A DNA stretch of 64,000 nucleotides from Oceanidesulfovibrio marinus. GTDB lineage: Bacteria > Desulfobacterota > Desulfovibrionia > Desulfovibrionales > Desulfovibrionaceae. Shown piece after piece: positions 10,989-31,237 of the stretch (position 1 is its first letter; every line of letters begins with the position of its first letter). The notes under the pieces are model-generated. The model saw only the letters and a program-made list of their open reading frames with translations, did no database searches and was not told where the DNA came from. The translations under genes and the position numbers were made by a program. The stretch covers positions 186,001 to 250,000 of the forward strand of contig NZ_CP039543.1 of NCBI RefSeq assembly GCF_013085545.1. The letters run 5' to 3'.

Positions 10989-12098
10989 CTATGGTTCAGA
11001 GAGGCTTTTTCCGACGGGCGCAGGGCTCGCGCCGAAGCGTAAGCGGACCATTTTGATGGCCATAAAGATGATAAGGAGTGCGCCCACGTAGCCGTTAAGC
11101 ACATAGATGTAGTTAACCAAGGTGTTGAAGGGAATTTTAAGTGCCACAAAGCAGCCCGCGATAGCGAGTATAACGGTCAATCCCTTGTATTCCTTGCTGC
11201 CTTGTTCCGTAAACCGTGCGCATACGGTCCAGAGAAGCGGGCAAGACGTCGTGTAAATACTCAGCACGATGATGGCGGCAAATACATGGGCGAGCACAGG
11301 CGCCAGCTTTTGCGCCAGAATCAGATTGGGCACCTGGGTTCCGGCAACGTCCCGGATGTCGGCAACTTGCGCCAAGCTCACGATGATGCAGGCGAAAACG
11401 AGCAGGGACACGCCGAGGATCTGCCCGAGTTGCAGCTCCTTGCCGTTATGCTCGTATTCAGAGCCAAGCTGGGCCATGAAGCCTGCGAGCCATACCAGGC
11501 AGAACCCGCCATACGAACACCCCGCAAAGAGCCAGTGTGTGGAGGCCTGCATGACTGTGACCTGCTTGGTTTTGATCAGCATGACTCCTTCGGCGAGCGA
11601 ACCCCATGAACGGGCAAGGGCACATATGCCGATCAGAATGGCCAGAATCATCAGGGCGGGGCCGATCTTACTGATAATGTTGACGATGGTATTCAGGCCG
11701 AAAATAACCGTCAATCCGGCGCAGATGGCAAGTCCGACCGCGCCGATCGCGCCGGGAATGCCGAACTGCTGTTCTACCGTGGCGCTAATGCCGCCGAGCA
11801 TGACCACGAAAGACATGTAACAGAAGATGGCAGCGAAATAGTCAAAGAGCCGCCCGAAAAACGGGCCGCAAAAATAGTTGAACACTTCGCTTCCCTTGGT
11901 GAATTTCTCACGGTTGCCGGCGTAGACAAAACAGTAGTTGGCAAAAGCGAGCACCAGAATAATAGTAATGCCCACAAGAATGCTTTGATATTGATACGCA
12001 GCGAAATACTGCAGAATTTCCTGGCCTGAAGCGAACCCAGAGCCTATCAGAAATGCAAGTATTGCCCCTGCTATGGTCAAGACCAAACCTTTGTTCAT
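10989..12098 (-). CDS. YkvI-family membrane transporter of the grd cluster
   Basis: A 369-residue integral membrane protein with about ten hydrophobic segments. The N-terminus reads TIAGAILAFLIGSGFASGQEI, which matches the YkvI family (APC/LeuT-like fold, substrates unproven). It is the last gene of the minus-strand unit grdE-grdB-grdX, 43 bases after grdX, so a role in importing glycine or an N-methylated glycine (sarcosine, betaine) is a reasonable inference. AGAGAGGAATGCGTA precedes the ATG and supplies the ribosome site. It is followed by a terminator-like hairpin. Confidence 0.75.
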   Translation of the reverse strand: MNKGLVLTIAGAILAFLIGSGFASGQEILQYFAAYQYQSILVGITIILVLAFANYCFVYAGNREKFTKGSEVFNYFCGPFFGRLFDYFAAIFCYMSFVVMLGGISATVEQQFGIPGAIGAVGLAICAGLTVIFGLNTIVNIISKIGPALMILAILIGICALARSWGSLAEGVMLIKTKQVTVMQASTHWLFAGCSYGGFCLVWLAGFMAQLGSEYEHNGKELQLGQILGVSLLVFACIIVSLAQVADIRDVAGTQVPNLILAQKLAPVLAHVFAAIIVLSIYTTSCPLLWTVCARFTEQGSKEYKGLTVILAIAGCFVALKIPFNTLVNYIYVLNGYVGALLIIFMAIKMVRLRFGASPAPVGKSLSEP

Positions 12099-12141: not shown

Positions 12142-12564
12142 TTATGAAGGCGTAACTCCATCTTGTTCAATGCTGTATTCAAGTCGGGAACACAGGTCGA
12201 ATTCCTTCAATTGCCTGATGGCCAACAACAATTGATCCTTGTTGATGCATTCGAGATCGAATCGTGTGCGTCCAGTGTCATGAACGCCAACGATGGCTGT
12301 CCGTGCCTTGGCTTTCTCCAAGGTGATCAAGCCTTGCGCGTCGTACTTGCGCGAGTTTTTTTCCAGAATGACACTGCGGATCGGCGAACGGATCAAGGGC
12401 ACATTGGCTGGCAGCGGGGATGATACCAGGGCATAACCATTTTGCAGGTGATCGCTGATGGCCTCGTATATTGCTTCAATGCCACCAGGCACGTGGATTA
12501 CTGCGAAGTCTTGCAGGTCTGTCCCGATGATGCTGCCATTGTTGGTGAGAATGACGTACTCCAT
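12142..12564 (-). CDS. grdX: GrdX family protein
   Basis: A 140-residue protein starting MEYVILTNNGSI. It resembles GrdX, a small protein of unknown biochemical role found with glycine, sarcosine and betaine reductase operons in Clostridia and other anaerobes. The open frame extends 37 codons further upstream, but ATG 12564 fits the family start and has GAAGGA upstream. It lies 152 bases downstream of grdB, beyond a terminator-like hairpin, and 43 bases before the ykvI-like gene. It is predicted cytosolic; no metal or catalytic motif is evident. Confidence 0.8.
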   Translation of the reverse strand: MEYVILTNNGSIIGTDLQDFAVIHVPGGIEAIYEAISDHLQNGYALVSSPLPANVPLIRSPIRSVILEKNSRKYDAQGLITLEKAKARTAIVGVHDTGRTRFDLECINKDQLLLAIRQLKEFDLCSRLEYSIEQDGVTPS

Positions 12565-12673
12565 GAGTTGTCCTTCATAGCCACTGCAAGCCCGATGTTT
12601 CCACGCATGAAAACATGCGAAAGATGGCGGACCTGATGTGGGATGTCTTTTCATGAAACTGCACCTTTTACGC

Positions 12674-12706
12674 AAAACCCCCGGAACAGCACTGCCGTTC
12701 CGGGGG
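12674..12706 (-). terminator. Terminator or attenuator after grdB
   Basis: On the minus strand, GCCCCCGGAAC-type arms (10 perfect base pairs, 12678-12687 with 12697-12706), a 9-base loop, then TTTTGCG. It begins 11 bases after the grdB stop and would reduce transcription into grdX and the ykvI-like gene. Confidence 0.75.
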
Positions 12707-14040: not shown

Positions 14041-15324
14041 CTAAATGTCTTCGCAGCCAACGTTGCTGAAGCCGATTTCACACGTAGAGGCGATAATGGC
14101 CTGCAGCTCGATGAACATGGATCCGTCCTGGCGCAAACTTTCCTCCGCGCCACCGGAGAGGTTGGCAATGGCTCTGTCGTCGCCAATGACCTGGTCCATG
14201 GCCGGAACTTCAATCATTTCATTGACGTTTCCGGTTGAAACAAAGGACACGAGCTCAGGCGTGGAGTCTGCAATGCCTTGGCTTTTGCCATCGATGCCCG
14301 CTGCCTCGTCTGAGATGACAACGGCGACAATGCCCGCGTCCTCGTGCAGTTTTGCGTTCAGGCAAAAATCAGTGTCGGGGTTGCCGTAGCCTTCCTCCGT
14401 GATGATGACGGCGTTGGCTCCCAGCTCCTTGGACAAGGTGAGGTTCATCAGGGCCGAGCGCTGTTTACCTGCGAGGATGGTGCTCTCCAAGGTGGGGACC
14501 ATGCCGAGGAAGTTGATGTCTTTTCCGTGACGGGCAAAGAGCTCGGTCACCACGGGGTTGTGCACGTGGTGATAGGTTGTGTTCTTGTCACAGGCGGAAA
14601 CGCAATTGCCGGAGACAACTGCGCCGTCCAACACTTCACAGGGGTGCAGCAGAGTCGGCAAAGCCGGACGCAGATCCGCCGCGTAGACATAGGTGTCGTG
14701 CAGCAGGCCCTGGGTGATGGACATGCAGAGGTATAAGACCTTGGGCAAGTCCGGATACTTGGCGCTTTCCCGATCAATGGTGTCCTTTTCGTACACCTCG
14801 ACGACATCGGGCTTGGCGTCCATGCACTCCTTGGCGAGATACACGCTCAGACGGAGCCCTGTCTCTCGCAATGCCGCTTCGTATTCATGTGGATCGAGCT
14901 TATCAACGGGATCGACCACCATGACAATGTTCACGGTCTTGGAGAAGGGCGTATAGTCCGCCGCCGGACCCTTCATGTCGATGAAGCCTTCCTGGAACGC
15001 GACGATCGGGCCGCATGTAACGACGGCCGCGCCGTCCAGTACGAACGTCGCACCTTCCCCGGCTCTGGACATGGGGGCGCAAAAACCCGGGAAATAGCCG
15101 CTGCCGTCCATCTTGATGCGCGGTTCAATCGCATCCTTCACAGGAATGATGCGGATGCTTTCTCCAGGTCTCGCGATCACCAGATCCGCCGTTTTGAAGC
15201 GGCTGTCATTCATGATAATGGCGACAGCCTCTTCCTTGTTGATGTAGAGCACTCCGCCGTCGACATGGGTTCTGTCTCCCCATTGTGCATCCTTGACTGC
15301 AGCTTTGTGCAATTCGAGTTTCAT
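14041..15324 (-). CDS. grdE: Glycine reductase component B, GrdE proprotein
   Basis: A 427-residue protein. GrdE is cleaved after translation at an internal Cys to give two subunits, one carrying an N-terminal pyruvoyl group that forms a Schiff base with the substrate amine. Here the site is in VVSGNCVSACDKNTT, with Cys241, matching the processing Cys near 242 in Eubacterium acidaminophilum. The N-terminus MKLELHKAAVKDAQWG is typical. ATG 15324 was chosen because GGAGG lies 6 bases upstream; the frame extends 14 codons further. It is first in the minus-strand unit, preceded by a 0.37-kb leader with a terminator-like hairpin and a sigma-54 promoter. Homologues GrdG and GrdI serve sarcosine and betaine. 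Confidence 0.93.
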   Translation of the reverse strand: MKLELHKAAVKDAQWGDRTHVDGGVLYINKEEAVAIIMNDSRFKTADLVIARPGESIRIIPVKDAIEPRIKMDGSGYFPGFCAPMSRAGEGATFVLDGAAVVTCGPIVAFQEGFIDMKGPAADYTPFSKTVNIVMVVDPVDKLDPHEYEAALRETGLRLSVYLAKECMDAKPDVVEVYEKDTIDRESAKYPDLPKVLYLCMSITQGLLHDTYVYAADLRPALPTLLHPCEVLDGAVVSGNCVSACDKNTTYHHVHNPVVTELFARHGKDINFLGMVPTLESTILAGKQRSALMNLTLSKELGANAVIITEEGYGNPDTDFCLNAKLHEDAGIVAVVISDEAAGIDGKSQGIADSTPELVSFVSTGNVNEMIEVPAMDQVIGDDRAIANLSGGAEESLRQDGSMFIELQAIIASTCEIGFSNVGCEDI

Positions 15325-15419
15325 ATAACACCTCCAATAATAGTGATTGGAATTACGAATAGTCACTTACAATGTTCTAAATGGTGTCTTTCCCTCCTCG
15401 TATGTCGTCGCCAAACGCA

Positions 15420-15862: not shown

Positions 15863-15994
15863 ATATACGAAAGGAAAAAATTTTTTAATCTACGAATAGA
15901 GGACAGAGGCGTGAGAGAGGTCGAGAACTGGCAGAAGCGGCGTGGTGTGCAGCTCGTGTCCGCTTCTTTTCACCCGCTGTAGAAGGGGTGCCGG

Positions 15995-17671
15995 CTAAAG
16001 GCTGCCGGGTATGAATGCGTTTTTGGCAATGCCGTACTTTTTCATTTTATAATGCATGAGTTGGGGTGAGATGCCGAGCAGCCTGGCTGCCATGGCCACA
16101 TTGCCCGCCGAAGTTCGAAGCGCTTTTTCAATGGAAGAGGCTTCAACGGCTCGCGTTTGTTCGGAAAGAGTGAAGATGCCCCCTGTTTCATTCGTGGCCT
16201 GAGCGGGCGCGGGGACATTGGTCTCGGCAGCAGCCAGGGGCGCAGCCTCGTCAAAGGTCGCCAGGGGCGGATACGGCGCCTCCTGCGCCTGGCTTTCCGA
16301 AGCATCGGGCGATTGATTCACCATGTGAGAGTCTTGAAACGCGAGCCAAGGTGTTGTGGCTTCATCCGGATGGTTGATGGGGTTGAAGTCCGGGACGGCA
16401 CGGTAGAGATGAGAAGGTTCCAGGTGATCGCCCGCTTCAACAATAGACAGGCTGGCCTCGATGGCATGTTCCAGCTCGCGCACATTTCCAGGCCAGGTGT
16501 GGGAGTAGAAAATCGCCATGGCTTCCGGAGTGATGAGGGGGATGGGGATGCCGAGCCTTTCACTGTGCAGTTTGACAAAATGCTGCACTAGTAAGTGGAT
16601 GTCCTCCGGTCTGGAACGAAGCGGAGGAATCTGGATTTTAACCACACCAAGCCGGTAATAAAAATCCCGGCGCAGCAACCCGTCCTCTACAAGGGTCACA
16701 GGGTTTGTGCCCACGGAGCTGATGATACGCACATCTATGGAGCGCTCCTTTCCCTCTCCGACCCGTCGTACCTTCCTTTCCTGGAGGACCCGAAGCAGTT
16801 TGTTCTGCAGGGAAATAGGCATGGAGTCTATTTCGTCCAAATAGAGTGTGCCTCCATTGGTGGCCTCGAAAAGACCCTGCCTGTTCACGGCTCCGGTGAA
16901 TGCCCCTTTGGTCGTACCGAATAAAATGCCCTCCAGCAGTGTTTCCGGCAAGGCGGAGCAGTTTATCGCCGTATAGGGCTTGGAACGCCGGTACCCTTCG
17001 TAATGAATGGCCTGGGCGAATATCTCCTTGCCCACGCCTGTCTCGCCTACCAGCATGACAGAAGACGACGACTGGCAGACTTTTTGGGCCAGCTTTGCAG
17101 CCTCCAGCAGCAGGGGGCTCTCTCCGATCAGCGAAGAAAACATGTAATGCGATCTCTCGGAGGTCTGCTGCTGGAGGAGCGAGGTCTCCGGAGGGGTGGA
17201 TTCGTCCGACTCCTGCAGGAACCCTACGTGCCTCCCAATGACGCTGTAGCTTTGAATAAAGCAGATGGCGCCCAGAAGAACGCCGTTCGACCACAGCGGG
17301 TAGATGGAGTTGGCTGAGTTTACCAGCCTGCCGTGTCTGGTGCGGTAGTAATGAACGCTGTCAAAGACGGGTTCTCCGGTAGTCGTCGCCCGCATGGTGG
17401 GGCTGTGTCCGGGCGTAAAATTGTAAACATCGCAAATGGCCTTGCCCAGGGTGTCCTTGGGCGAGAGCCCGTCGAGACGTGCCTGGGCATCATTATAGTA
17501 GATGATCGTCCCATCGGTCCGAATGATGGTGATACCCACCTGGTTGGCGTCGAAAAGCATGTGGAAAACATCCAGCAACTGGGACAGATCACTGCAGTTA
17601 TCTAATATTTTCCCAAGCACCAGGAGCTCCAGATGGTTTTGCGTGGGGTGTTTGCGTCGAGAAATATCCAT
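15995..17671 (-). CDS. Sigma-54-dependent transcriptional activator with PAS domain
   Basis: A 558-residue enhancer-binding protein. Residues about 35-150 are a PAS-type sensor. The AAA+ domain has Walker A GETGVGKE (209-216), the sigma-54 contact loop GAFTGA (256-261) and Walker B GGTLYLDEID (273-282). A variable Ala/Pro-rich linker runs about 440-500. A Fis-type helix-turn-helix ends the protein (NVAMAARLLGISPQ...MKKYGI). It lies between two divergent grd units that both carry sigma-54 promoters, so it very likely activates them in response to a metabolite or redox signal sensed by the PAS domain. The N-terminal ATG 17671 overlaps no other gene. Confidence 0.9.
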   Translation of the reverse strand: MDISRRKHPTQNHLELLVLGKILDNCSDLSQLLDVFHMLFDANQVGITIIRTDGTIIYYNDAQARLDGLSPKDTLGKAICDVYNFTPGHSPTMRATTTGEPVFDSVHYYRTRHGRLVNSANSIYPLWSNGVLLGAICFIQSYSVIGRHVGFLQESDESTPPETSLLQQQTSERSHYMFSSLIGESPLLLEAAKLAQKVCQSSSSVMLVGETGVGKEIFAQAIHYEGYRRSKPYTAINCSALPETLLEGILFGTTKGAFTGAVNRQGLFEATNGGTLYLDEIDSMPISLQNKLLRVLQERKVRRVGEGKERSIDVRIISSVGTNPVTLVEDGLLRRDFYYRLGVVKIQIPPLRSRPEDIHLLVQHFVKLHSERLGIPIPLITPEAMAIFYSHTWPGNVRELEHAIEASLSIVEAGDHLEPSHLYRAVPDFNPINHPDEATTPWLAFQDSHMVNQSPDASESQAQEAPYPPLATFDEAAPLAAAETNVPAPAQATNETGGIFTLSEQTRAVEASSIEKALRTSAGNVAMAARLLGISPQLMHYKMKKYGIAKNAFIPGSL

Positions 17672-17693
17672 GGCGCAGGGCCCCCCACTTGTC

Positions 17694-17714
17694 TTTTTTG
17701 TATTTATAAAAAAA
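17694..17714. promoter_or_regulatory. AT-rich inverted repeat, candidate activator site (right)
   Basis: TTTTTTGTA followed by TT then TATAAAAAA, so the arms match at 8 of 9 positions. It shares the half-site TTTTTTGTA with 15839-15862. It lies about 130-150 bases upstream of the trxB sigma-54 promoter and just upstream of the activator's own start. Chance similarity of AT-rich DNA cannot be excluded. Confidence 0.45.
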
Positions 17715-17844
17715 TTATGAAATTCGTCAAAATATTTGTTTTTTCCAATATGAAGTATGCCGTTTGTCGATCGAAGCCATTATGTATATCGATACATTTC
17801 CTTGTAGAGATAGGTTTTTGGGGCGTTTAGAGGGAGCTCCTCAA

Positions 17845-17860
17845 TGGCATGGCATTTGCT
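17845..17860 (+). promoter_or_regulatory. Sigma-54 promoter for trxB-grdCD-trxA-grdA unit
   Basis: TGGCATG-GCAT-TTGCT fits the -24/-12 consensus at every position with correct spacing. The expected start is near 17872, giving a leader of about 250 bases before trxB, in which I see no further strong hairpin. Confidence 0.85.
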
Positions 17861-18119
17861 CTAAATTTCACATGTTCTTGTTTTACGCCACTGTAGATGA
17901 TCAGCCGGCTGGCATACAGCGTGATGCGTAACTCTGGAAGCATGTGCGCAAAATGTGTGTTCCGCATTGTAGTGATCTGTATAGCGCTATTGCATGGAGA
18001 TATAGTGGCGAATTTATGCTGAGGATTGCTGGCTGACGCGACGTCCGGAACTGTTGGGTGTGCTGCGTTCGTTGAAAAATTGTTTTTAACTATAGGCAAT
18101 AAACACTCTGAGAAATGTT

Positions 18120-19040
18120 ATGGAAGAACGTGAACTTGTAATAATCGGCGGAGGGCCAGCTGGAATGGCTGCTGCTGTGTATGGCAAGCGCGCCGGATTG
18201 GATCTCGTGGTCCTGGAAAAGGGAATTTGCGGAGGGCAAATCCTGATTACCAGTGAGATCGAAAACTATATCGGCCAGAAACACATCAGCGGACCGGAGT
18301 TGGCAAAGTCATTTCGCGAGCATGCAGAGTATTTCAACGCGGAATTCCGTAAGAGCACGGTGAAGGCGATTGTTCCCCGGGACGGCGCATTCACGGTTGT
18401 CTCGTCCGAAGGTGAAATCGCGGCCAAGGCCGTTATCGTGGCCACTGGCGCGGCCTTTCGCCGTCTCGGCGTGAAGGGTGAAAAGGAGTTTACAGGCGCT
18501 GGCGTAAGCTACTGCGCGGTCTGCGATGGCGCGTTTTACCAGGACAGCGTCATAGCGGTTATCGGGGGCGGCAACACGGCGGTTGAAGAGGCCTGCTACC
18601 TGACTCAGTTCGCGTCAAAGGTCTACATCGTGCATCGCCGCGACGAGTTCCGCGCAGACAAGATGGCCTGTGAGCGTGCGGCCTGCAACGACAAGGTCGA
18701 GCCGGTCTGGAACTCCGTGCTGGAAAGCATCAATGGCTCCGAGCTCGTGGAAAGCATCACCGTGAAAAACGTAAAAAGCGGCGAGCTGAAAGATATCGAA
18801 GTCGAAGGTGTCTTCGTGTTTGTCGGGGTTCTTCCCATCACCAAATGCCTGGGAGAGCTGTGCGAACGGGAGGAGGGCGGATGGGTCAAAACGGATGCAA
18901 AAATGCAGACATCCATTCCCGGTCTCTTCGCTGCCGGGGATGTGCGCGTAACACCATTGCGCCAGGTGATCACCGCCGTGTCCGATGGAGCCATAGCCGC
19001 CATGTCCGCATACCATTGGATAACTGCCGGTCAATGTTGA
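18120..19040 (+). CDS. trxB: Thioredoxin reductase of the glycine reductase system
   Basis: A 306-residue FAD/NADPH flavoprotein. The N-terminal dinucleotide motif is GGGPAGMAAA (residues 10-19). The redox centre CAVC is at residues 132-135. The NADPH motif GGGNTAVEEA follows, and the C-terminal FAD segment contains GLFAAGDVR. It reduces the thioredoxin encoded 3 kb downstream, which in turn re-reduces the selenoprotein GrdA after each catalytic cycle. trxB and trxA genes are standard members of grd operons. It is the first gene after the sigma-54 promoter. The ribosome site is weak (GAGAAATG overlaps the usual spacing). Confidence 0.93.
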   Translation: MEERELVIIGGGPAGMAAAVYGKRAGLDLVVLEKGICGGQILITSEIENYIGQKHISGPELAKSFREHAEYFNAEFRKSTVKAIVPRDGAFTVVSSEGEIAAKAVIVATGAAFRRLGVKGEKEFTGAGVSYCAVCDGAFYQDSVIAVIGGGNTAVEEACYLTQFASKVYIVHRRDEFRADKMACERAACNDKVEPVWNSVLESINGSELVESITVKNVKSGELKDIEVEGVFVFVGVLPITKCLGELCEREEGGWVKTDAKMQTSIPGLFAAGDVRVTPLRQVITAVSDGAIAAMSAYHWITAGQC

Positions 19041-19211
19041 CCTGTTGCATTGACTCTACCCTTTGTCAGGCAAGGGCGAGCTCTGGTTTTGCATTGAGGA
19101 TGCCCGGAAGGGTGTGGGCTCGCGAGGTTATAGACATGAACGCAGATCCCGTTCCCTCCGGGGGAGACCATGAATTCGCCTGCCAACGGCCTATTAATCA
19201 AGGAGAACACC
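19041..19211 (+). other. Spacer between trxB and grdC
   Basis: 171 bases with no gene. It ends in AAGGAGAACACC, a clear ribosome site for grdC. Confidence 0.5.
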
Positions 19212-20747
19212 ATGGCAACTGTGGCCGTCAAAGCTACTGCCTATTGCCTTAATTACGCCCAGGAGATCGGACTGCGTTATGGGTCCACGCCGTACCAGGA
19301 ACGGCATGCGACCCCGGATTCTCCCTTTCTCGCTGGTCTGGAAGAAGCAATCGTGCCGTACGACATGGTCTGCAGCTACGCGCCGAACCTGACGTATATC
19401 GGGGTGTTGAGCACGGAGGAGTTGGCGGTCCACGCCAAGCCGTGTCTTGAGAATCTGGAAACAGAACCCGTCCGTTTCGGCAAGTACGGCGAGATCATGC
19501 CGGAAGACGAATTTCTCGGTCTCCTGGATATCTGCGACGTCTTCGATTTGATCTGGCTGGAGCAGAGCTTTGCCGCGTCCGTACGCGCGAAGCTGGAAGC
19601 CCATCCCCTGATGAACGAGGTCCAGCTGAAGCGACTGGAGCAAGGCCATGATCCGGCGGAAGTCGAAAAGGAAGTATCGGAGAATGGGGCGCTGCCGTTG
19701 TATTTCAACGGGAATGTCATCGGCTGCTGTCGCAAGGGGCATGATGTCGACGAGAATCTTACCGCACATGTGCTGCTCGAAAACATCGCATCCAAGGCCG
19801 GCGCCACGCTTTCGCTCATGCACCTGATCCGAAACGCGGGCCTGCAGCCTTCGGATATAGATTTTGTGGTGGATTGTTCCGAAGAGGCCGCCGGCGACAT
19901 CAATCAGCGCGGCGGCGGCAACATTGCCAAGGCCATTGCGGAAAGCGCCGGATGCGTGAATGCCAGCGGATTCGACCTGCGCGCGTTCTGTGCGGCTCCG
20001 GTGGCCGCCATTATCGCCGCCGGGAGCATGGTCGCGGCAGGCGCCCGTAAGAATGTGGCCGTTGTCAGCGGCGGTTCCATCCCGAAGCTCTACATGAACG
20101 CGCGCGAGCACGTGAAAAAGAAAGTCCCTCCCATGGAAAACGTCATGGGGTGTTTCGCGTTGCTGCTTACCGAGGATGACGGTCAGACCCCTGTTATCCG
20201 GCTGGATGCGCTCGGCAAGCACACGGTGGGAGCCGGCGCTTCCCCGCAGGCCGTAACCATGGCCCTGGTGTGGAATCCGCTGCAGGCCGCAGGTCTGACG
20301 TTTACGGATGTGGATAAGTACGCCCCGGAACTGCACGACCCGGAAGTAACGGTTCCCGCCGGGGCGGGCAATGTCCCGGAGGCCAACTACAAGATGATCG
20401 CGGCGCTGGCGGTGATGAAAGGCCAGTACGAAAAGGCCGAAATCCCGACCTTTGTGAAAAAGCACGGGCTGATCGGATTTGCACCCACGCAGGGGCATAT
20501 ACCATCCGGGGTGCCTTTTCTGGGCCACGCCGTTGATGCGATTAAGGCCGGTACGTTGAACCGGGCCATGATCATTGGCAAGGGAAGCCTGTTTCTCGGC
20601 CGCATGACCAATCTGGCGGATGGCGCTTCCTTTATGGTGGAAAAGCCTACGGGCAAGAAGGCAGGCGTGGCTTCTGTTTCTCGAGAAGAGGTTGAAAGCG
20701 TTCTCCTCGACGTCTTGGGCGAACTCGCGGTCAAACTCAAGGAGTAA
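19212..20747 (+). CDS. grdC: Glycine reductase component C beta subunit GrdC
   Basis: A 511-residue protein, the usual GrdC length. Component C (GrdC with GrdD) takes the carboxymethyl-selenoether from GrdA, forms an acetyl thioester and releases acetyl phosphate with phosphate. The fold is related to the FabH/PlsX-type acyl transferases, seen here in VDCSEEAAGD, DLRAFCAAPVAAIIAAGSMV and GHIPSGVPFLGHA. The frame is open from 19170, but ATG 19212 has AAGGAGAA 6 bases upstream. grdD follows after 4 bases, indicating tight coupling. Confidence 0.93.
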   Translation: MATVAVKATAYCLNYAQEIGLRYGSTPYQERHATPDSPFLAGLEEAIVPYDMVCSYAPNLTYIGVLSTEELAVHAKPCLENLETEPVRFGKYGEIMPEDEFLGLLDICDVFDLIWLEQSFAASVRAKLEAHPLMNEVQLKRLEQGHDPAEVEKEVSENGALPLYFNGNVIGCCRKGHDVDENLTAHVLLENIASKAGATLSLMHLIRNAGLQPSDIDFVVDCSEEAAGDINQRGGGNIAKAIAESAGCVNASGFDLRAFCAAPVAAIIAAGSMVAAGARKNVAVVSGGSIPKLYMNAREHVKKKVPPMENVMGCFALLLTEDDGQTPVIRLDALGKHTVGAGASPQAVTMALVWNPLQAAGLTFTDVDKYAPELHDPEVTVPAGAGNVPEANYKMIAALAVMKGQYEKAEIPTFVKKHGLIGFAPTQGHIPSGVPFLGHAVDAIKAGTLNRAMIIGKGSLFLGRMTNLADGASFMVEKPTGKKAGVASVSREEVESVLLDVLGELAVKLKE

Positions 20748-20751
20748 GGCC

Positions 20752-21906
20752 ATGAATGCATCCCAAAGACATCTCATAGCCGAGGCGCTTGCCTCCGTCG
20801 TGGATAAGGCGCGGCATGGCGGTCCGGTTGTCAAAATCGGTCTTATGGCGACGGGGAGCGAGCTTGGGCAGGAGGAAATCCTGCGCGGCGGCCGCATGGC
20901 GCAAGAAGACAACGCCGGTCTGCGCGTCGTGGCTATCGGTCCACGCATGCCCGGGTTCGACGATCTCGAATGGATTGAAACCCCGGACAGCGAGGCGGAG
21001 CTCAATGCCGGTGTGGAAAAAGCATTGAGCGATGGCGCAGTCTCCGGCCTGGTCGCCATGCATTTTCCCTTTCCCATTGGTGTCGCTACCATCGGACGCT
21101 CAATGACGCCCGGCAGAGGCAAGCCCATGTTTATCGCCTCTTGCACCGGCACCACTGCGCACTCGCGGGGAGAGAGCCTGCTGCGCAACGCGGTGTACGG
21201 CATAGCCGTTGCCAAGGCCTGCGGCGTTGCGGAACCCTCGCTGGCCTTTCTGAACATAGACGGCGCGGGACCGGTGCTGCGTGCGTTTTCCCGCATGAAG
21301 GACAGGGGCTATGCCGTGTCCTTCGGGACGAGCGGACGCGGTGACGGGGGATCGCTGCTGCGCGGTAACGACCTGGTTGCAGGGAGCGTGGATGTGCTGG
21401 TTTGCGACACGCTTACCGGAAACGTGCTGTCCAAGGTCTTTTCCACCTTCACCACTGCCGGCCAATACGAGACCACAGGGTGGGGGTATGGCCCCTCCGT
21501 TGGAGAGGGCTGGAACAAGATCGTTTCCATTGTCTCCCGTGCTTCTGGTGCGCCTGTCATCGCCGGCGCGCTCGCCCTCACCGCCAGAGCCGCCAAGGGC
21601 GGGCTTCCGGATGTCGTGGCTGCGGAGCTCAAGGCTGCGCGAGCCGCTGGATTTGATGAAGAGCAGGAAGCCTTGAAGCCAAAGGCCGCCGCTGCGGAGC
21701 AGATTCCGGAAAAACCACCAGTGGTCCCAGTCGATGAGGAAATCGCCGGCGTTGATGTCCTGGACATGGAAGCCGCCATGTACTCGTTATGGAAGGAAAA
21801 AATCTATGCGGAAACGGCCATGGGCTGCACTGGCCCTGTGGTTCGCATTCAACGCGCGGTCAAGGATGCTGCCATCGGCGTTCTGAAGAAGGCTGGGTAT
21901 CTGTAG
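20752..21906 (+). CDS. grdD: Glycine reductase component C alpha subunit GrdD
   Basis: A 384-residue partner of GrdC. The C-terminal motif GCTGPVVRI contains Cys359, the position reported as the acetyl-thioester-forming residue in Eubacterium acidaminophilum GrdD. A second conserved segment is ASCTGTTAHSRGES (Cys131). An Ala/Pro/Lys-rich linker lies about residues 305-330. ATG 20752 has GGAG 10 bases upstream, inside the grdC end region. It produces acetyl phosphate, from which acetate kinase could make ATP; no ackA lies in the window. Confidence 0.93.
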   Translation: MNASQRHLIAEALASVVDKARHGGPVVKIGLMATGSELGQEEILRGGRMAQEDNAGLRVVAIGPRMPGFDDLEWIETPDSEAELNAGVEKALSDGAVSGLVAMHFPFPIGVATIGRSMTPGRGKPMFIASCTGTTAHSRGESLLRNAVYGIAVAKACGVAEPSLAFLNIDGAGPVLRAFSRMKDRGYAVSFGTSGRGDGGSLLRGNDLVAGSVDVLVCDTLTGNVLSKVFSTFTTAGQYETTGWGYGPSVGEGWNKIVSIVSRASGAPVIAGALALTARAAKGGLPDVVAAELKAARAAGFDEEQEALKPKAAAAEQIPEKPPVVPVDEEIAGVDVLDMEAAMYSLWKEKIYAETAMGCTGPVVRIQRAVKDAAIGVLKKAGYL

Positions 21907-21978
21907 GACGCAGACGTTGTTCCATTCCGGCGGCAAGCATTGAGTCGGGTAATCCTCTTATAGTCAAGGAGAGTACAA

Positions 21979-22296
21979 ATGCTGGAGCTAGATAAGGACA
22001 ATTTTGAGGCGGAAGTGACGCAAAGTGATCGTCCAACAGTGCTTGATTTCTGGGGCCCGCAGTGTGGACCCTGCCTGGCGCTTATGCCGGACGTGGAAAA
22101 GCTGGCGGAAGGGTATGATGGCAAGATCAAGTTCTGCAAGGTGAACGTGGCGGGCAACCGGCGTCTGTGCATTTCACTTAAGGTCATAAGCGTTCCCACC
22201 TTTCTTTTCTACAAGGGCGGAGAGTGCGTGCAACGTCTTGTTGGCGACGACGTCTCTATTGAATCCATCAAGGAAAATGCAGATACGATGCTCTAG
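21979..22296 (+). CDS. trxA: Thioredoxin of the glycine reductase system
   Basis: A 105-residue thioredoxin fold with active site WGPQCGPC (Cys29, Cys32). The usual WCGPC tryptophan-cysteine spacing is altered: WGPQ replaces WA.W before CGPC, as is typical of grd-linked thioredoxins. The cis-Pro is in ISVPTFLFYKGGE. It carries electrons from TrxB to GrdA. AAGGAGAG sits 8 bases before the ATG. It is followed after 244 bases by grdA. Confidence 0.9.
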   Translation: MLELDKDNFEAEVTQSDRPTVLDFWGPQCGPCLALMPDVEKLAEGYDGKIKFCKVNVAGNRRLCISLKVISVPTFLFYKGGECVQRLVGDDVSIESIKENADTML

Positions 22297-22540
22297 GAGG
22301 CTGTCATAGAACGTTACGCCCAAAGTGCTGGATCATAGAGACACAAAAGCAGGACAATCAGAAATTGTACAGGAGGTGTGCACGCCCGTTGATGATTGTT
22401 GTCCATATGCAAGAAACGCTGTGGTCGCTTTGGCAAGATGTCCGCATGCAATCCCCTGCTTTTTGCGGACCTGACGGAACAGGATGATGAAAGATCATGG
22501 TGGGTCCGACGATAACCAATAACATCGCGAGGTAAGAATT

Positions 22541-23017
22541 GTGAGTAAATTGACCGGTAAGAAACTGATCCTTATGGGCGAACGGGATGGAGTTCCCAGC
22601 CCAGCCATGGAGAGCGTTTTCGCCGGCAGTGGAGCCGAGGTGGCCTTTTCCGCCACCGAATGCTTCGTCTGAACGGCGGCAGGCGCCATGGATCTGCAAA
22701 ACCAGCAACGCATCAAGGACGCCGCCGAAAAGTTCGGCGTTGACAATCTGATTGTCATCATTGGCGCATCCGATGCGGAAGGTGCAAGCATTTATGCGGA
22801 AACCGTCACCGCTGGTGACCCTACGTTTGCAGGTCCCTTGGCTGGAGTCTCGTTGGGACTCCCAGTGTACCACATTCTGGACCCGCTTCTGAAAGCTGAA
22901 GCCGATCCGCAGATCTGGGAAGATCAGATCAGCATGATGGAAATGGTTCTGGATGGTGACGCTCTTACTGCTGCCGTTGCCGAAATGCGCGAACAACATG
23001 GTAAAAGCGTCTTGTAA
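22541..23017 (+). CDS. grdA: Glycine reductase selenoprotein A, GrdA
   Basis: A 158-residue protein when the in-frame TGA at 22670-22672 is read as selenocysteine. Sec is residue 44 in ATECFVU-TAAG, the same position and motif CxxU as GrdA of known glycine reducers (CFVUTAAGAMDL). Standard calling would start at ATG 22688 and lose the redox centre. The start is GTG 22541 with GCGAGG upstream, giving MSKLTGKKLILMGERDG, the typical N-terminus. GrdA is the shared carrier: Sec accepts the carboxymethyl group from component B and hands it to component C, then the mixed selenide-sulfide is reduced by thioredoxin. A terminator follows. A separate conventional SECIS stem after the UGA is not obvious. 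Confidence 0.95.
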
Positions 23018-23748: not shown

Positions 23749-24666
23749 ATGTTTCGACCAGAAGGCGTTTATCCGGCTCTGTTGACGCCGTTTTCCGCCG
23801 ACCTTCGCGTGAACGAGGCCGAGCTGCGAAAACTCGTGGAGTTCTGCATCGGGAAGGGCGTGCACGGAATTTTTCCGGTCAGTTCCGTGGGCGAAGGGCT
23901 GCATATGGATCACGATGAAAAATGCCGCTGCATGGACATCGTGGTCGACCAGGTCGCAGGGCGCATTCCGGTAACGCCCGGTGTGGTGGGCTCGTACCCG
24001 CAGGAGTGCATTCGTCTTGCCAAGCACGCCGCATCCCTCGGCTGCGCAGCTGTGGTGGTCACGCCGCCATATTACTTCAAGCCCTCGCCTTCCATGGTTC
24101 AGCGGTTCTTCGAAACCATTGGCGAGGAGAGCGGTATTCCTTTGATTCTCTACAACATTCCGCTGTTCACCCAGCCGCTGGACTACGCAACCGCCGCCAG
24201 CCTGAGCACCAAGGACTACGTGGTGGGGATGAAGGACTCCAGCGGTAGCATGGTTGACTTCCTGCACTTCACGGACGCCATCCAGCGCGCCGGCGGCGAA
24301 GTGCAGATGCTCACGGGCCGGGAAGAAAACCTCATCCCAAGCCTTCTCATGGGAGCCAAGGGCTGCATCACCGCATCGTCGGGCATTTTCCCCGAGATCA
24401 TGGTCGGCGCCTACGACGCCTGGATGGACGGAAACGTCGAGGAAGCCAAGGCGCTGCAGCGGGAGATTCTCATCCTCGTGCGCACCATGTTTGCAGCTCC
24501 TTTCCCCGTGGGATTCAAGCTTGCGCTCGAACTTCGCGGCTTCGAGATGGGCCCGCCGCTGCTGCCTCTGGGCACAACGGACGAGGAAAAGCTTGAGTCT
24601 GTGAAGCAGGAGCTCAAGCCGCTGATGGAGAAGGCCCTGAAACGCTTCGAGGGCGTTTCGGCTTAA
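23749..24666 (+). CDS. DHDPS/N-acetylneuraminate-lyase family aldolase
   Basis: A 305-residue TIM-barrel class I aldolase. The Schiff-base Lys162 lies in VVGMKDSSG and the catalytic Tyr135 in LILYNIP. FPVSSVGEG replaces the GTTGE substrate loop of true DapA, arguing against a lysine-biosynthetic role. In sugar-acid clusters such enzymes cleave 2-keto-3-deoxy acids to pyruvate plus an aldehyde; Campylobacter jejuni carries a DapA-like gene (Cj0481) at the same place in its fucose locus. AAGGAG sits 11 bases before ATG. It is followed after 23 bases by an IclR gene and opens a cluster reaching to about 33.6 kb. Confidence 0.85.
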   Translation: MFRPEGVYPALLTPFSADLRVNEAELRKLVEFCIGKGVHGIFPVSSVGEGLHMDHDEKCRCMDIVVDQVAGRIPVTPGVVGSYPQECIRLAKHAASLGCAAVVVTPPYYFKPSPSMVQRFFETIGEESGIPLILYNIPLFTQPLDYATAASLSTKDYVVGMKDSSGSMVDFLHFTDAIQRAGGEVQMLTGREENLIPSLLMGAKGCITASSGIFPEIMVGAYDAWMDGNVEEAKALQREILILVRTMFAAPFPVGFKLALELRGFEMGPPLLPLGTTDEEKLESVKQELKPLMEKALKRFEGVSA

Positions 24667-24689
24667 ACCGCAAATTCGGGGGGCTCGTC

Positions 24690-25466
24690 ATGGCAGAAAA
24701 CAAATACCAGGTGCCGGCGCTCATTCGCGCCAACAAGATACTGGACTATCTCAGCAAGCACGAAGCGGATATGGCCGAGATCATGTCCGCGTTGGGTCTG
24801 CCCAAGAGTACGGTGTACTCGCTGCTGCTGACACTTGAAGAGATCGGCTTTGTAAGGCGCCTGCCCGGCGGGCAGAAGTTCACGCTTGGGTTCCGGCTTT
24901 TCGAGCTGGGCACCATCACCGTGTCCAAGGTCTCCATTCGCGATCAGGCGATCTCACGTCTGCAGCAGCTCTCGCAGCAGGAAAAGGTAACCTGCCATCT
25001 CGGCGCCCTGGACGGCAACGAGGCCGTGTATCTGCTCAAGGTCGATCCGCATGACGACATCCTTATCAACTCCTGGGAAGGCAAGCGCCTGACCCTGAAC
25101 CGTTCGGCCATGGGCAAGGTTCTCCTGGCCTGGCTGCCACGGGAGCGTCAGGACGAGCTCATCGAGTCCCTCGAATTCCTGCCGATCACGCCCAAGTCCT
25201 TTGTGGACAAGGACCAGTTCCGGAACCACCTGGCCGACGTCAAGCATCAGCAATGGGCCATGGATGATGAGGAAGACATCATCGGGATTCGCTGTCTGGC
25301 CGCGCCCATTTTTGTCCCGGACGGCTCGGTTCGCTACTCGCTGAGCGTTTCGAGCGTGGTCCAGAAAATCGGTGACGACCGCGTCGAACTGCTGCGCCAA
25401 CGCGTGGTGGAAACTGCGCGAAACATTTCGAGGGCCCTGGGCACCTCGGAGGACGTATGGAGCTAG
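24690..25466 (+). CDS. IclR-family transcriptional regulator
   Basis: A 258-residue regulator. The N-terminal winged helix (about residues 8-70: MAEIMSALGLPKSTVYSLL) is followed by the IclR effector-binding domain (about 80-250) with CHLGALDGNEAVYL, RSAMGKVLLAWL and IGIRCLAAPIF. IclR proteins commonly repress sugar-acid catabolic operons and are released by a pathway intermediate. Placement between the aldolase and the TRAP transporter suggests it controls this cluster and perhaps itself. Confidence 0.9.
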   Translation: MAENKYQVPALIRANKILDYLSKHEADMAEIMSALGLPKSTVYSLLLTLEEIGFVRRLPGGQKFTLGFRLFELGTITVSKVSIRDQAISRLQQLSQQEKVTCHLGALDGNEAVYLLKVDPHDDILINSWEGKRLTLNRSAMGKVLLAWLPRERQDELIESLEFLPITPKSFVDKDQFRNHLADVKHQQWAMDDEEDIIGIRCLAAPIFVPDGSVRYSLSVSSVVQKIGDDRVELLRQRVVETARNISRALGTSEDVWS

Positions 25467-25651
25467 AAGCCGTCGCGCACATGCCCGTATTTCCCGTGGC
25501 CTCGTCAGGTTCGTCCCGTCTGGCGGCCGGATAATACCCCCTCCGCGCGGAGCGCGCCTTTCCAGCCACGGAACAAGGCACGCGTGAGCGGATGGCTTCG
25601 GGTGTGCGCGATTAGAGGGTTGTCCAAACATTCTTGCAATGGAGGTTTGCA
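25467..25651 (+). other. Spacer between iclR-type gene and dctP-type gene
   Basis: 185 bases without a gene. It ends in GGAGGTTTGCA, the ribosome site for the TRAP binding protein. No clear terminator. Confidence 0.4.
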
Positions 25652-26647
25652 ATGTCTCTTCGGAAGTCTGCCGTCGTCTCTCTCCTCTCACTGGCCGTCT
25701 GTTGTCTCTGCTTCAGCGGCGCCGCCATGGCGAAAACCGTGGTCAAGCTGGCATACGAAAACAACCCGGGCGAGCCCTTCGACGTTGTCGCCCACAAATG
25801 GGCGGACCTGGTGAAGGAGCGCAGCAACGGCGAGGTCGAGCTCGAACTCTACCCCAGCTCCCAGCTCGGCAGCAAAAAGGACGTGCTGGAGATGGCCATG
25901 ATGGGGGTCAACGTCATCACCATCACCGACGCCGGCTTTCTCGCGGATTACGTCCCGGACTTCGGCATCCTCGTCGGCCCCTACCTGGCCAAGGACGCGA
26001 AGGACATCTTCAAGCTCTTCAAGACAGATTGGTTCAAGGGCCTCGACGAACAACTGCAGCAGAAGGGCCTGCACATCGTCACGCCCAACTGGATGTTCGG
26101 CGTTCGCCATCTGCTGACCACGAAACCCGTGGAAAAGCCTGAAGATCTGCACGGCTTGAAGATTCGCGTGCCCAACAACAGGATGCAGATCGCCACCCTC
26201 AAGGCCATGGGCGCAACGCCGACTCCCATGCCCCTGAGCGAGGTCTACCCGGGCCTGACGCAGGGCGTCATCGACGGCGCGGAGAATACATTGCCTGTCA
26301 TCTACGGGCAGAAGTTCTTCGAGCCTGCCCGTTATCTCGATCTCGTCGGGTACATGACCATGACGGCGCAGTGGGTCGGCGGCCAGGCCTTCTTCGACAC
26401 CCTTCCTCCTGAGACGGTGCAGCTCCTGCACGAGACCGGCGACGAGGCCGGCGACATCAGCAAGCAGCTGCTGGCTGCTGACGGTAAGGAGGACATGGCG
26501 ATCATCGAGAAGATGAAAAACGAGGGCGTCACCGTGGTCGAGGTTGACACCACACCGTTCCGGGAAGCCACCAAGTCCGTCTACGACGAGTTCCCTGAAT
26601 GGACGCCTGGTCTGTACGACAAGGTTCAGAAACTCCTGGAACAATAG
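25652..26647 (+). CDS. TRAP transporter solute-binding protein (DctP family)
   Basis: A 331-residue periplasmic binding protein. The signal peptide ends at SGAAMA (about residue 26). The mature protein starts KTVVKLAYENNPGEPF and contains the DctP-type ligand segment LKIRVPNNRMQIATLKAMGATPTP, whose Arg normally binds a substrate carboxylate. This implies an organic acid such as a sugar acid. ATG 25652 was chosen over an in-frame ATG at 25634 because GGAGG lies 8 bases upstream. The membrane subunits follow after a strong hairpin. Confidence 0.9.
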   Translation: MSLRKSAVVSLLSLAVCCLCFSGAAMAKTVVKLAYENNPGEPFDVVAHKWADLVKERSNGEVELELYPSSQLGSKKDVLEMAMMGVNVITITDAGFLADYVPDFGILVGPYLAKDAKDIFKLFKTDWFKGLDEQLQQKGLHIVTPNWMFGVRHLLTTKPVEKPEDLHGLKIRVPNNRMQIATLKAMGATPTPMPLSEVYPGLTQGVIDGAENTLPVIYGQKFFEPARYLDLVGYMTMTAQWVGGQAFFDTLPPETVQLLHETGDEAGDISKQLLAADGKEDMAIIEKMKNEGVTVVEVDTTPFREATKSVYDEFPEWTPGLYDKVQKLLEQ

Positions 26648-26665
26648 TCAGCGTGAGGCTTGACA

Positions 26666-26687
26666 GGGCCGGCCTTCGGGCCGGCCC
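26666..26687 (+). promoter_or_regulatory. GC-rich hairpin with UUCG loop between dctP and dctQ
   Basis: Perfect 9-bp arms GGGCCGGCC / GGCCGGCCC closed by TTCG. No T-run follows directly, so it is probably an mRNA-stabilising or partial-termination element that keeps the binding protein more abundant than the permease. Confidence 0.7.
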
Positions 26688-26720
26688 CACATAACCTTTT
26701 GGCGCACGAGGAAAAGACGC

Positions 26721-27206
26721 ATGCGGCGTACTGATCTTCTCAAGATATTCGATGTCGTCTCGGCCACGCTGTTGGGAGCCATAATGATCTTGACCGTGGC
26801 TGCCGTGTTTCAGCGCTACATCATGTCCAGCCCCATACAATGGGCGGAGGAAGTAAACGGCATACTCTTCCTCTGGTCGATCATGCTGGGCTGCGCATCG
26901 GCAAAGCGGACGAACTCCCATCTGACCATCAACATACTCTCTTCGCATCTTTCGGGCCGAGCCAGAAGCATTCTGCAGATCTTCCTGGAGCTAATGACCA
27001 TCGCCGTCATGGCCCTGCTGAGCTGGTACGGCGCGCAGCTCGCCCTCCAGGTGAAGTTCAAGATCACCAACGTTCTCGGCTTTTCCTTCGCGTACTACGA
27101 CTACGCCATTCCCGTGGGAGCCGCAGGCGTGGCGCTTTTCTCCATCATGAACATCTACAGCATCATGAAGCACGGTGACATAGAGAACAAGGAGCTGGCC
27201 CAATGA
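26721..27206 (+). CDS. TRAP transporter small membrane subunit (DctQ family)
   Basis: A 161-residue protein with four hydrophobic helices and the family-typical segment QWAEEVNGILFLWSIMLGCA. With DctM it forms the sodium- or proton-driven TRAP permease that accepts substrate from DctP. The last bases overlap the dctM start (ATGA), so translation is coupled. Confidence 0.9.
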   Translation: MRRTDLLKIFDVVSATLLGAIMILTVAAVFQRYIMSSPIQWAEEVNGILFLWSIMLGCASAKRTNSHLTINILSSHLSGRARSILQIFLELMTIAVMALLSWYGAQLALQVKFKITNVLGFSFAYYDYAIPVGAAGVALFSIMNIYSIMKHGDIENKELAQ

Positions 27207-28486
27207 CGATTGGTATCATCTGCGCAGCCATGCTGTTGGGCTTCGCCATCGACCTCCCCATCTTTGTCGCCGTCATCGGCGCCGTATTTCTGTACTTCCT
27301 GACGAACAACGGCGCGCCGCCAACGATCGCCGTGCAACGTCTCGTCGGCTCGTCGCAAAACCTGTCCCTGCTCGCCGTGCCGTTCTTCATCATGCTCGGC
27401 ACCGTGATGAACCACACCGGCATTACAAGGCGGCTGCTGGGGCTGGCAGAGATGCTGGTGGGCCGGTACCGCGGCGGTCTTGCCCAGGCCAACATCCTGC
27501 TGAGCACCATGATGGGCGGTCTTTCCGCGTCCAACCTCGCAGACTGCGCCATGCTCACCAAGATGCTGCTGCCAGAGATGGAGCGCTGCGGCTACAGCCG
27601 GTCGTTCGCTGCTGCAGTCACAGCGTCGGGCTCGCTCATCACGCCTATTATTCCTCCGGGCATCGCGCTCATCATTTACGGCTTTCTCGCGGATGTCTCC
27701 ATCGGCAAGATGTTCATGGCCGGCATCCTGCCCGGGCTGCTGTGCGCCATTGCTCTGATGTTCACCGCGTACCTCGTGTCCGTAAAGAAAGGATACGCCC
27801 CGTCCCGGTGCGAGCGCGTCACGTCCCAGGAGTTCTTCACGACCCTGAAGAACGCCGTGCCCGCGCTGACCCTGGTGGTGGTGATCATCGGCGGTATCCG
27901 GTTCGGCGTGTTCACGCCCACGGAGGCCGGCGCCGTGGCCGTGGCCTACGTCATCGGCATCGGCCTGTTCGTCTACAAGGAGATGCGGCCGCGGCACATC
28001 CTCGAAGCGCTCATGGAGACGACCCGCTCCACGGCGTCGGTCATGATCATCATCATGGCCTGCTCGGCGCTGGCCTGGATCTTCTCGTGGGAGCAGGTGG
28101 CCCAGAACATGGCCACGGCCATTACCCATGTGACCACGAGCCCGGTCCTCTTCCTGCTGATGATCAACGCCATCTTCCTGGTCATGGGCATGTTCCTGGA
28201 GGGCAACGCCATCCTCATCGTGTTGGTGCCCTTGCTGAAGCCCACGGTGGAGGCGCTGGGTATCGACCTGATCCACTTCGGCCTGGTGATCATTCTGAAC
28301 CTGTCTATCGGCACGCTTACACCCCCAGTCGGAACAGTAATGCTTCTTGTAACCGGTCTCAGCGGCACCAGTGTGCTGGAGTTCTTCAAGACGGCGCTGC
28401 CTTTTTACATCGCACTCATCGTATGCCTTCTGCTGCTGTCGTTCTTTCCGCAGATAACGCTGCTGCTGCCGAACATGATGAACTAG
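27203..28486 (+). CDS. TRAP transporter large permease (DctM family)
   Basis: A 427-residue membrane protein with about twelve helices. Family motifs include PFFIMLGTVMNHTGI, MMGGLSASNLADCAM, SGSLITPIIPPGIALIIYG and LSIGTLTPPVGTVM. It is the translocating subunit. The start overlaps dctQ by 4 bases. The split dehydratase follows within 45 bases, so transporter and enzyme genes are probably one transcript. Confidence 0.93.
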   Translation: MTIGIICAAMLLGFAIDLPIFVAVIGAVFLYFLTNNGAPPTIAVQRLVGSSQNLSLLAVPFFIMLGTVMNHTGITRRLLGLAEMLVGRYRGGLAQANILLSTMMGGLSASNLADCAMLTKMLLPEMERCGYSRSFAAAVTASGSLITPIIPPGIALIIYGFLADVSIGKMFMAGILPGLLCAIALMFTAYLVSVKKGYAPSRCERVTSQEFFTTLKNAVPALTLVVVIIGGIRFGVFTPTEAGAVAVAYVIGIGLFVYKEMRPRHILEALMETTRSTASVMIIIMACSALAWIFSWEQVAQNMATAITHVTTSPVLFLLMINAIFLVMGMFLEGNAILIVLVPLLKPTVEALGIDLIHFGLVIILNLSIGTLTPPVGTVMLLVTGLSGTSVLEFFKTALPFYIALIVCLLLLSFFPQITLLLPNMMN

Positions 28487-28530
28487 TGCCGGAAAAACAA
28501 ATGCAACAAGACCAAGACAGGAAGACGACA

Positions 28531-28857
28531 ATGCTTTGTCTCAAGATACATGAGGACGACAACATCGCCATAGCGACGCAGCATCTGAGCCCTGGAAAGC
28601 GTGTCGAGATGGGCGGGAGTGAAATTGAAGTGCGCGATGATATCGCACCGTTTCACAAGATGGCGCTCCGCAGAATTGGCGCGAACGAAGAGATCATCAG
28701 ATATGGCGTACCGATCGGCAGAAGCACCCAGGACATAGAGCCAGGCGCCCATGTGCATCTTCACAACATGAAGAGCAGCTATATCCCGACGTATCTCAGA
28801 AGCACGAATGGATTCGACGCGACCCCGTGCGAGGTGGAAGAGCATGATCATAGGTAA
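28531..28857 (+). CDS. UxaA-family dehydratase, small (SAF-domain) subunit
   Basis: A 108-residue protein corresponding to the N-terminal SAF domain of altronate/galactarate-type dehydratases, with EEIIRYGVPIGRSTQDIEPGAHVHLHN. In many species this domain is fused to the catalytic part; here it is a separate gene overlapping the next by 14 bases, as in Campylobacter jejuni Cj0482/Cj0483 and in SuyA/SuyB sulfolactate sulfo-lyase. ATG 28531 has AGGA upstream; ATG 28501 in frame is an alternative. Neighbours favour a sugar-acid dehydratase over SuyA. Confidence 0.8.
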   Translation: MLCLKIHEDDNIAIATQHLSPGKRVEMGGSEIEVRDDIAPFHKMALRRIGANEEIIRYGVPIGRSTQDIEPGAHVHLHNMKSSYIPTYLRSTNGFDATPCEVEEHDHR

Positions 28858-30049
28858 CGGGTTTGTCCGCAAGGATGGCAGAAAGGGAATTCGCAATCGT
28901 GTCGTTGTCGCCAACCTGGTGAAGTGCTCGTCCCACATAGCGCATGAGATCGCCAAAGACGCCGGGGACGACGTCCACGAGATCAGCTTCAACGGCTGCT
29001 ACCCGAACGAGCACGCCAATCGCATGATGCGTCAACTCTGCACCCACCCCAACGTGGGTGGGGTGATCATCGTTTCCCTGGGATGCGAGAGCTTCCCGCG
29101 GGACTCCCTTTACGCAGCCGTCAAGAGCTCCGGCCGGCCGGTGGAGATGATCGTGGTTCAGGAATCCGGCGGCACTGCCAGCAGCGTCGCCAAGGGGCGC
29201 GCCGCGCTCTCGGCCATGCTTGAAGAGATCCGGCAGACTCCCAGGGCGCCCATGCATCTGGACGAGCTGGTGGTGGGCACGGTCTGCGGCGGCTCCGACG
29301 CCACCAGCGGCGTCACGGCCAACCCGGCTGTGGGGCTGTTCTTCGACCGCTTCATCGCCGAAGGCGGCACGGGCGTCTTCGAGGAAACCGGCGAGCTCAT
29401 CGGCTGTGAGGAGACCATGCGCCAGCGCAGTGTAACTCCGGCGCTGGGCGAGGCGGTTGTCGAGTCGGTGCACAAGGCCGCCCGGTACTACACCATCATG
29501 GGCCATGGCAGCTTCGCCCCGGGCAACGCCGAAGGCGGCCTGACCACCCAGGAGGAGAAGTCCATGGGGGCGTACGCCAAGAGTGGTTCCTGCGCCATCA
29601 GCGGCATCATCAAGCCCGGCCAGATACCTGCCGGCAAAGGGCTGTACCTGCTGGACGTGGTGCCGGACGGCGAGCCCCGCTTCGGGTTCCCGAACCTCAA
29701 CGACGTTACGGAAATACTGGAGATGGCCGCCTGCGGCTGCCACCTGATGCTGTACACCACGGGGCGCGGCTCGGTAGCCGGCAGCGCCATCATCCCCACC
29801 ATCAAGGTCTGCGCCAACCCACTGACATACCGAAACTTGTCGAATGACATGGATGTCGACGCCGGACGCGTGCTGGAGGGACGCGGCACACTCCAGGAGG
29901 TGGGAAACGAGATATTCGAGCGGGTGGTTGCCGTGGCTGGAGGGAAGCCTTCCAAGCCCGAGGCCCTGGGCCATCGCGAGTTCGATCTACCCTACAAGTA
30001 CTTCGACGTGGATGAGGATACGTGCGCCAACCAGTGCGCGTGCTCGTGA
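28844..30049 (+). CDS. UxaA-family dehydratase, large catalytic subunit
   Basis: A 401-residue protein beginning MIIGNGFVRKDGRKGIRN, typical of the D-galactarate/altronate dehydratase C-terminal family (also SuyB). Conserved parts include SLGCESFPRD, VQESGGTAS, VVGTVCGGSDATSGVTANPA and a Cys-ended tail (CANQCACS). These enzymes are iron-dependent and remove water from sugar acids to give 2-keto-3-deoxy acids. Overlap with the small subunit implies a stoichiometric complex. Likely substrate: the aldonate made by the dehydrogenase and lactonase encoded downstream. (R)-sulfolactate is a second possibility. Confidence 0.82.
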   Translation: MIIGNGFVRKDGRKGIRNRVVVANLVKCSSHIAHEIAKDAGDDVHEISFNGCYPNEHANRMMRQLCTHPNVGGVIIVSLGCESFPRDSLYAAVKSSGRPVEMIVVQESGGTASSVAKGRAALSAMLEEIRQTPRAPMHLDELVVGTVCGGSDATSGVTANPAVGLFFDRFIAEGGTGVFEETGELIGCEETMRQRSVTPALGEAVVESVHKAARYYTIMGHGSFAPGNAEGGLTTQEEKSMGAYAKSGSCAISGIIKPGQIPAGKGLYLLDVVPDGEPRFGFPNLNDVTEILEMAACGCHLMLYTTGRGSVAGSAIIPTIKVCANPLTYRNLSNDMDVDAGRVLEGRGTLQEVGNEIFERVVAVAGGKPSKPEALGHREFDLPYKYFDVDEDTCANQCACS

Positions 30050-31213: not shown

Positions 31214-31237
31214 AAGCGCCATATAAGGAGAAAGGAA

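Follow-up and report, generated by a model that had tools for sequence, protein, structure and literature searches.

The grd locus and its genes

We analyzed a 64,000-nucleotide stretch of the Oceanidesulfovibrio marinus genome (hereafter the window) and identified a locus encoding a glycine/sarcosine/betaine-type reductase (Table 1). The grdA frame runs on the forward strand from GTG 22541 to TAA 23015–23017 and contains a single internal stop, TGA 22670–22672, at codon 44. Translation of the frame with this TGA taken as selenocysteine (Sec) yields a 158-residue GrdA with the sequence CFVU at residues 41–44, and a plain list of open reading frames yields for grdA just the 109-residue ORF 22688–23017 (+). 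The start codon at the same position is ATG in all eight relatives whose upstream DNA was inspected. Using profile searches, we found that the full-length product matches the NCBIfam model for selenoprotein A of glycine/sarcosine/betaine reductase (NF040748, cut-off 130 bits) over residues 4–153 and the Pfam GRDA family (PF04723, cut-off 22 bits), with no second family at E ≤ 0.001 in NCBIfam or Pfam and no solved-structure relative by sequence at E ≤ 0.01. The Pfam GrdA family search identified one place in the genome and no match in any of 14 control genomes. The stretch 22297–22540 between trxA and grdA contains, by eye, just a possible short frame, and we claim no gene there.

Partner genes of grdA encoding component C, component B and the thioredoxin system lie within about 12 kb, with trxA assigned by its best model only. 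The component B selenoprotein carries its own Sec at residue 352 (TGA 12975–12977, minus strand) in a UxxCxxC motif with the sequence UGTCTRC. The complete reductase therefore requires UGA to be read as Sec in two genes, grdA and that of the B selenoprotein. The GrdX family protein has no Pfam match, and the membrane protein beside it has no match in either NCBIfam or Pfam.

Base composition sets this region apart, with a G+C fraction of 0.554 over positions 10032–23017 compared to 0.641 before and 0.609 after. The G+C-poor block starts just past a tRNA-Met gene (9955–10031), and it is plausible that the block represents an island gained horizontally. Neither GrdA nor the B component has a match in the one congener searched (G001, a draft genome), leaving no congeneric copy of GrdA to compare. 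A neighboring cluster at 23749–35056 encodes a DHDPS-family protein, a TRAP-type solute-binding protein (DctP), an altronate/galactarate dehydratase-like protein, a RhaT-like transporter, a Gfo/Idh/MocA oxidoreductase, an amidohydrolase and a CoA-transferase of family III, a gene content that perhaps serves sugar-acid catabolism.

Table 1. Features of the grd locus, with positions in the window and the evidence for each assignment
Feature	Position	Strand	Evidence
Membrane protein, possibly substrate permease	10989..12098	-	Hydrophobic translation and position
GrdX family protein (true start probably later)	12142..12675	-	NF038093 40.5 bits, cut-off 40, residues 42-122
Component B selenoprotein subunit (GrdB/GrdF type), 437 residues	12717..14030	-	TIGR01918 569.7 bits, cut-off 65.45
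Component B proprotein subunit (GrdE/GrdG type)	14041..15366	-	PF09338 605.6 bits; NF040793 499.1 bits, under cut-off 780
Sigma-54 dependent regulator containing a PAS domain, closest to PrdR	15995..17671	-	PF00158 197.2 bits; PrdR model 329.7 bits, under cut-off 795
trxB, thioredoxin reductase	18120..19040	+	TIGR01292 361.7 bits, cut-off 343.45
grdC, component C subunit beta	19170..20747	+	NF040746 711.2 bits, cut-off 450
grdD, component C subunit alpha (true start probably later)	20620..21906	+	NF040747 493.7 bits, cut-off 350, residues 50-428
trxA, thioredoxin	21979..22296	+	Best model NF047697, 129.3 bits, under cut-off 140
Shine-Dalgarno-like GAGGT, 7 bases upstream of GTG start	22529..22533	+	Sequence
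grdA, selenoprotein A, 158 residues, GTG start, TAA stop	22541..23017	+	NF040748 245.6 bits; PF04723 241.7 bits; 48 loci
In-frame TGA read as Sec, residue 44, CxxU motif	22670..22672	+	TGA at the aligned codon in 48/48 loci

Component B and the substrate of the reductase

Glycine, sarcosine and betaine reductases all use GrdA, and a single B selenoprotein is encoded in the genome. This subunit scores 549.1 bits against the glycine model TIGR01917 (cut-off 602.2), 596.2 bits against the sarcosine model NF040794 (cut-off 800), the best of the three substrate models, and 489.8 bits against the betaine model NF040795 (cut-off 775), and the B proprotein subunit likewise lies below the sarcosine GrdG cut-off. 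Because GrdA is shared by three reductases and the only B component falls under each cut-off, the name glycine reducer is not established for this genome. The original prediction had placed the Sec of grdA at the site known in glycine reducers, a name that for this organism goes further than the data, as its substrate-binding B component cannot clearly be assigned to the glycine type.

The low scores raise a further reading, compatible with grdA as a selenoprotein gene and altering only the name of the pathway, in which a divergent B component sets a substrate beyond glycine, sarcosine and betaine for the reductase that GrdA serves. We consider this reading rather unlikely. Besides the three missed cut-offs of the sole B selenoprotein, the placement of the subunit in a tree of 37 B subunits speaks in its favor, where it groups with three sequences, all from Synergistota (L033, L034 and L058), at 100/100 and apart from the other Desulfovibrionaceae, on a long branch (0.47) that makes its exact place less sure. 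However, the models for sarcosine and betaine have a narrow reach and a missed cut-off is weak evidence, as none of 10 other B subunits, drawn from the 36 relatives in the tree, passes either one. Five of these 10 subunits (L048, L019, L025, L021 and L056) pass the glycine cut-off, the three Synergistota sequences score like the B subunit of the window, and the remaining two (L031 and L022) score best with the betaine model. Four of the subunits that pass the glycine cut-off (L048, L019, L025 and L021) nonetheless score slightly higher with the sarcosine model, and the best-scoring model is thus a poor guide to substrate. As a weak guess from these scores, the substrate may be sarcosine or another N-substituted glycine.

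GrdA itself has a different placement from the B subunit, since in a tree of 71 GrdA sequences the GrdA of the window falls among Desulfovibrionaceae and near kin, with 95/88 for a set of eight rows. The pairing of a Desulfovibrionaceae GrdA with a B component from a Synergistota-type clade suggests that the substrate module may have been swapped, and paralogy and loss would also explain the discord between the two trees. If the locus is such a mosaic, its Synergistota-like B component may give the GrdA/GrdC core a substrate beyond glycine, sarcosine and betaine, a proposal that we hold to be doubtful.

Conservation of the UGA codon

Returning to the reading of grdA as a selenoprotein gene, we collected 48 homologous loci, 43 from a search of named genomes and five from four relatives in a profile search in which 5 of 99 genomes matched GrdA, the genome of the window included. 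These loci span Desulfovibrio relatives, Synergistota and Bacillota at 59–86% identity, except for one paralogue (L013) at 45%, and two pairs among them (L010/L021 and L012/L023) each look like one contig found by both searches. All 48 loci have TGA at the codon aligned to residue 44, match on both sides of it and keep the upstream half, so the reading of one continuous gene is not refuted by the relatives, and 46 of the 48 retain ECFV-TGA-TAAGAMD around the codon. Because the named genomes were searched with short peptides, ATECFVCT among them, that search favors relatives having this motif; the profile searches are free of this bias, and it was there that cysteine forms of GrdA appeared. A profile search across the phylum identified GrdA in 24 of 395 genomes, again including the window's own, with 26 loci besides that of the window: TGA is present in 22 of these, including the fragment L082 with 43 residues aligned; L086 has TGT, the fragment L087 stops short of the codon, and L083 and L084 are weak matches without alignment.

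Several relatives vary around the conserved codon. Locus L075:1498-1965 (+) keeps the TGA with changed flanking residues (TECMG-TGA-SSVEMLD). In two genomes of the same family, second GrdA paralogues at L013:1501-1941 (-) and L085:1501-1941 (-) keep the UGA and have Leu or Phe in place of the Cys of CxxU, and L013 adjoins, by eye, apparent trxA and trxB genes.

The 158-residue GrdA is not a product of chance, because the profile match extends over residues 4–153 and both halves, like the TGA, are conserved in relatives. That the TGA is a sequencing error, or a nonsense change of a former sense codon in a pseudogene, fits the splitting of grdA by plain ORF calling but is refuted by the conservation of the TGA and of both halves from Desulfovibrio relatives to Bacillota, runs counter to the selenocysteine genes kept in the genome, and deserves practically no credence. 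Conservation likewise rejects a pair of short proteins of 43 and 109 residues with the UGA as a true stop, for although an ATG at 22688, 15 bases past the TGA, opens the 109-residue ORF and could allow reinitiation, the profile match is unbroken through both halves and the motif spanning the codon is retained, and we give this arrangement a vanishingly small chance. The original prediction that the in-frame TGA, read as Sec, joins two half-frames into a 158-residue GrdA with Sec44 in a CxxU motif is borne out by frame, profile and conservation alike. The feature is almost certainly grdA, the gene for selenoprotein A of a reductase of the glycine/sarcosine/betaine type, with its internal UGA read as selenocysteine 44.

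The original prediction had further claimed that standard annotation would give only a truncated protein, which holds in part. According to the 2026 review (PMC13188914, in the portion drawn on here), pipelines relying on standard stops often truncate selenoproteins, but a substantial number are nonetheless annotated in RefSeq and GenBank, and a dedicated equivalog model (NF040748) exists for GrdA. Where plain ORF calling is used, GrdA is left without its redox centre and the B selenoprotein encoded in this locus is cut as well, and the reductase of this genome could look broken though whole.

Selenocysteine machinery and TGA usage

Profile searches of the genome identified each component of a selenocysteine-decoding system: selA (610.4 bits, cut-off 267.9), selB (370.8 bits, cut-off 242.25), selD (331.4 bits, cut-off 125) and a tRNA-Sec at position 1415085 (81.8 bits, anticodon TCA). 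The original prediction thus also withstands the check for this machinery. The cut-off is reached in one of 14 control genomes for selA and in two of 14 each for selB and selD, and weak control matches occur in 14 of 14 controls for the selB and selD searches and in four of 14 for selA. A second match to the tRNA-Sec model RF01852, at 47.1 bits against a gathering score of 47, is a tRNA-Ser. The selD gene (L006:1501-2436) contains one in-frame TGA and is probably itself a selenoprotein gene.

TGA also serves as an ordinary stop in this genome, ending for example trxB and the dehydratase-like gene 28808–30049, and a general reassignment of the codon is therefore unlikely. TGA ends 20 of the 47 long ORFs in a mechanical list, a count that includes spurious ORFs and in which one of the 20 TGA ends is the Sec codon of the B selenoprotein.

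Bacterial SECIS elements are variable in sequence. Single-sequence folding, alifold, comparison of folding energies with synonymous shuffles and analysis of synonymous-codon conservation revealed no convincing SECIS hairpin after the UGA of grdA. The fold around the UGA in the window has a z-score of 0.12, and codons 44–57 in 16 sequences fold no better than synonymous shuffles (mean z +0.22). In a scan over nine close sequences, the segments starting from codons 33 and 41 have the two lowest mean z values of 19 (-1.23 and -0.84), a weak hint in the other direction. Synonymous codon identity in 34 sequences gives a second weak hint, with 0.404 over codons 45–50, 0.609 over codons 51–60 (the highest block) and 0.602 over codons 101–120, and the GTC directly before the UGA is well conserved at 0.89. 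Apart from one tRNA, the window has no Rfam match at gathering scores.

GrdA homologues with cysteine at the selenocysteine site

Two loci, L086:1465-1983 (-) and L089:1492-1953 (-), encode GrdA homologues with CSLC replacing CxxU. They belong to two genomes of one distant genus in another family of the phylum and share 61% identity with one another and 31–35% with the GrdA of the window. Each is found on one contig with a TGA-type grdA locus. L089 scores 131.7 bits and L086 115.4 bits with NF040748 (cut-off 130). Near L089 are a component B proprotein gene (NF040793, 260.9 bits, under the cut-off) and, by eye, thioredoxin-, GrdC- and GrdB-like genes. In the order of genome G453, 2 of 21 genomes have a match, comprising the two G453 loci, L088 (a single TGA, regardless of position) and L089 (no stop).

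In excerpts, a 2006 survey (PMC1794560) describes GrdA as without known cysteine homologues, and a 2005 paper (PMC1242214) states that GrdA homologues do not carry cysteine at the Sec site. A passage of the 2026 review (PMC13188914) describes Sec-to-Cys changes as rare and documented mainly for FdhA and SelD. We found no description of a cysteine GrdA in the portions consulted of the literature on GrdA and Cys-containing homologs, which is not proof of its absence from print.

Proposed mechanism and comparison with known systems

In the chemistry of this reductase family, which yields energy from glycine-like compounds, component B binds the amine, the GrdA selenol takes the carboxymethyl group, component C converts it to acetyl phosphate and the thioredoxin system reduces GrdA. 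For the locus described here, SelB and tRNA-Sec would decode the internal UGA as selenocysteine 44, producing a single polypeptide of 158 residues that contains a CxxU redox pair. The B component would bind an amine substrate, the selenol of GrdA would accept the carboxymethyl group, component C (GrdC/GrdD) would release this group as acetyl phosphate, and thioredoxin with thioredoxin reductase would re-reduce GrdA. The open frame, the family membership, the conserved UGA, the partner genes and the selenocysteine genes are shown directly here; selenium insertion, catalysis and the substrate we infer.

Excerpts of the 2006 survey (PMC1794560) list GrdA for Syntrophus and Desulfuromonas and show no such entry for either Desulfovibrio species in its tables. 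For Desulfovibrio desulfuricans 27774, a portion of one report (PMC5701242) names Ddes_0112-0114, with neighboring gene numbers, as a sarcosine reductase, a member of the glycine/betaine/sarcosine/D-proline reductase family and a thioredoxin reductase; these sarcosine reductase-like genes were compared with the locus in the window by their listed names. Known GrdA proteins (PF04723, NF040748) share with the GrdA of the window the near whole-length profile match, the UGA-encoded Sec in CxxU, a motif given for GrdA in the excerpted 2026 review (PMC13188914), and the same partner genes. GrdA selenoproteins are long known, and the grdA gene described here is not novel but a real, complete, textbook selenoprotein gene that differs from the family in nothing essential and whose product groups with Desulfovibrionaceae, not with clostridia.
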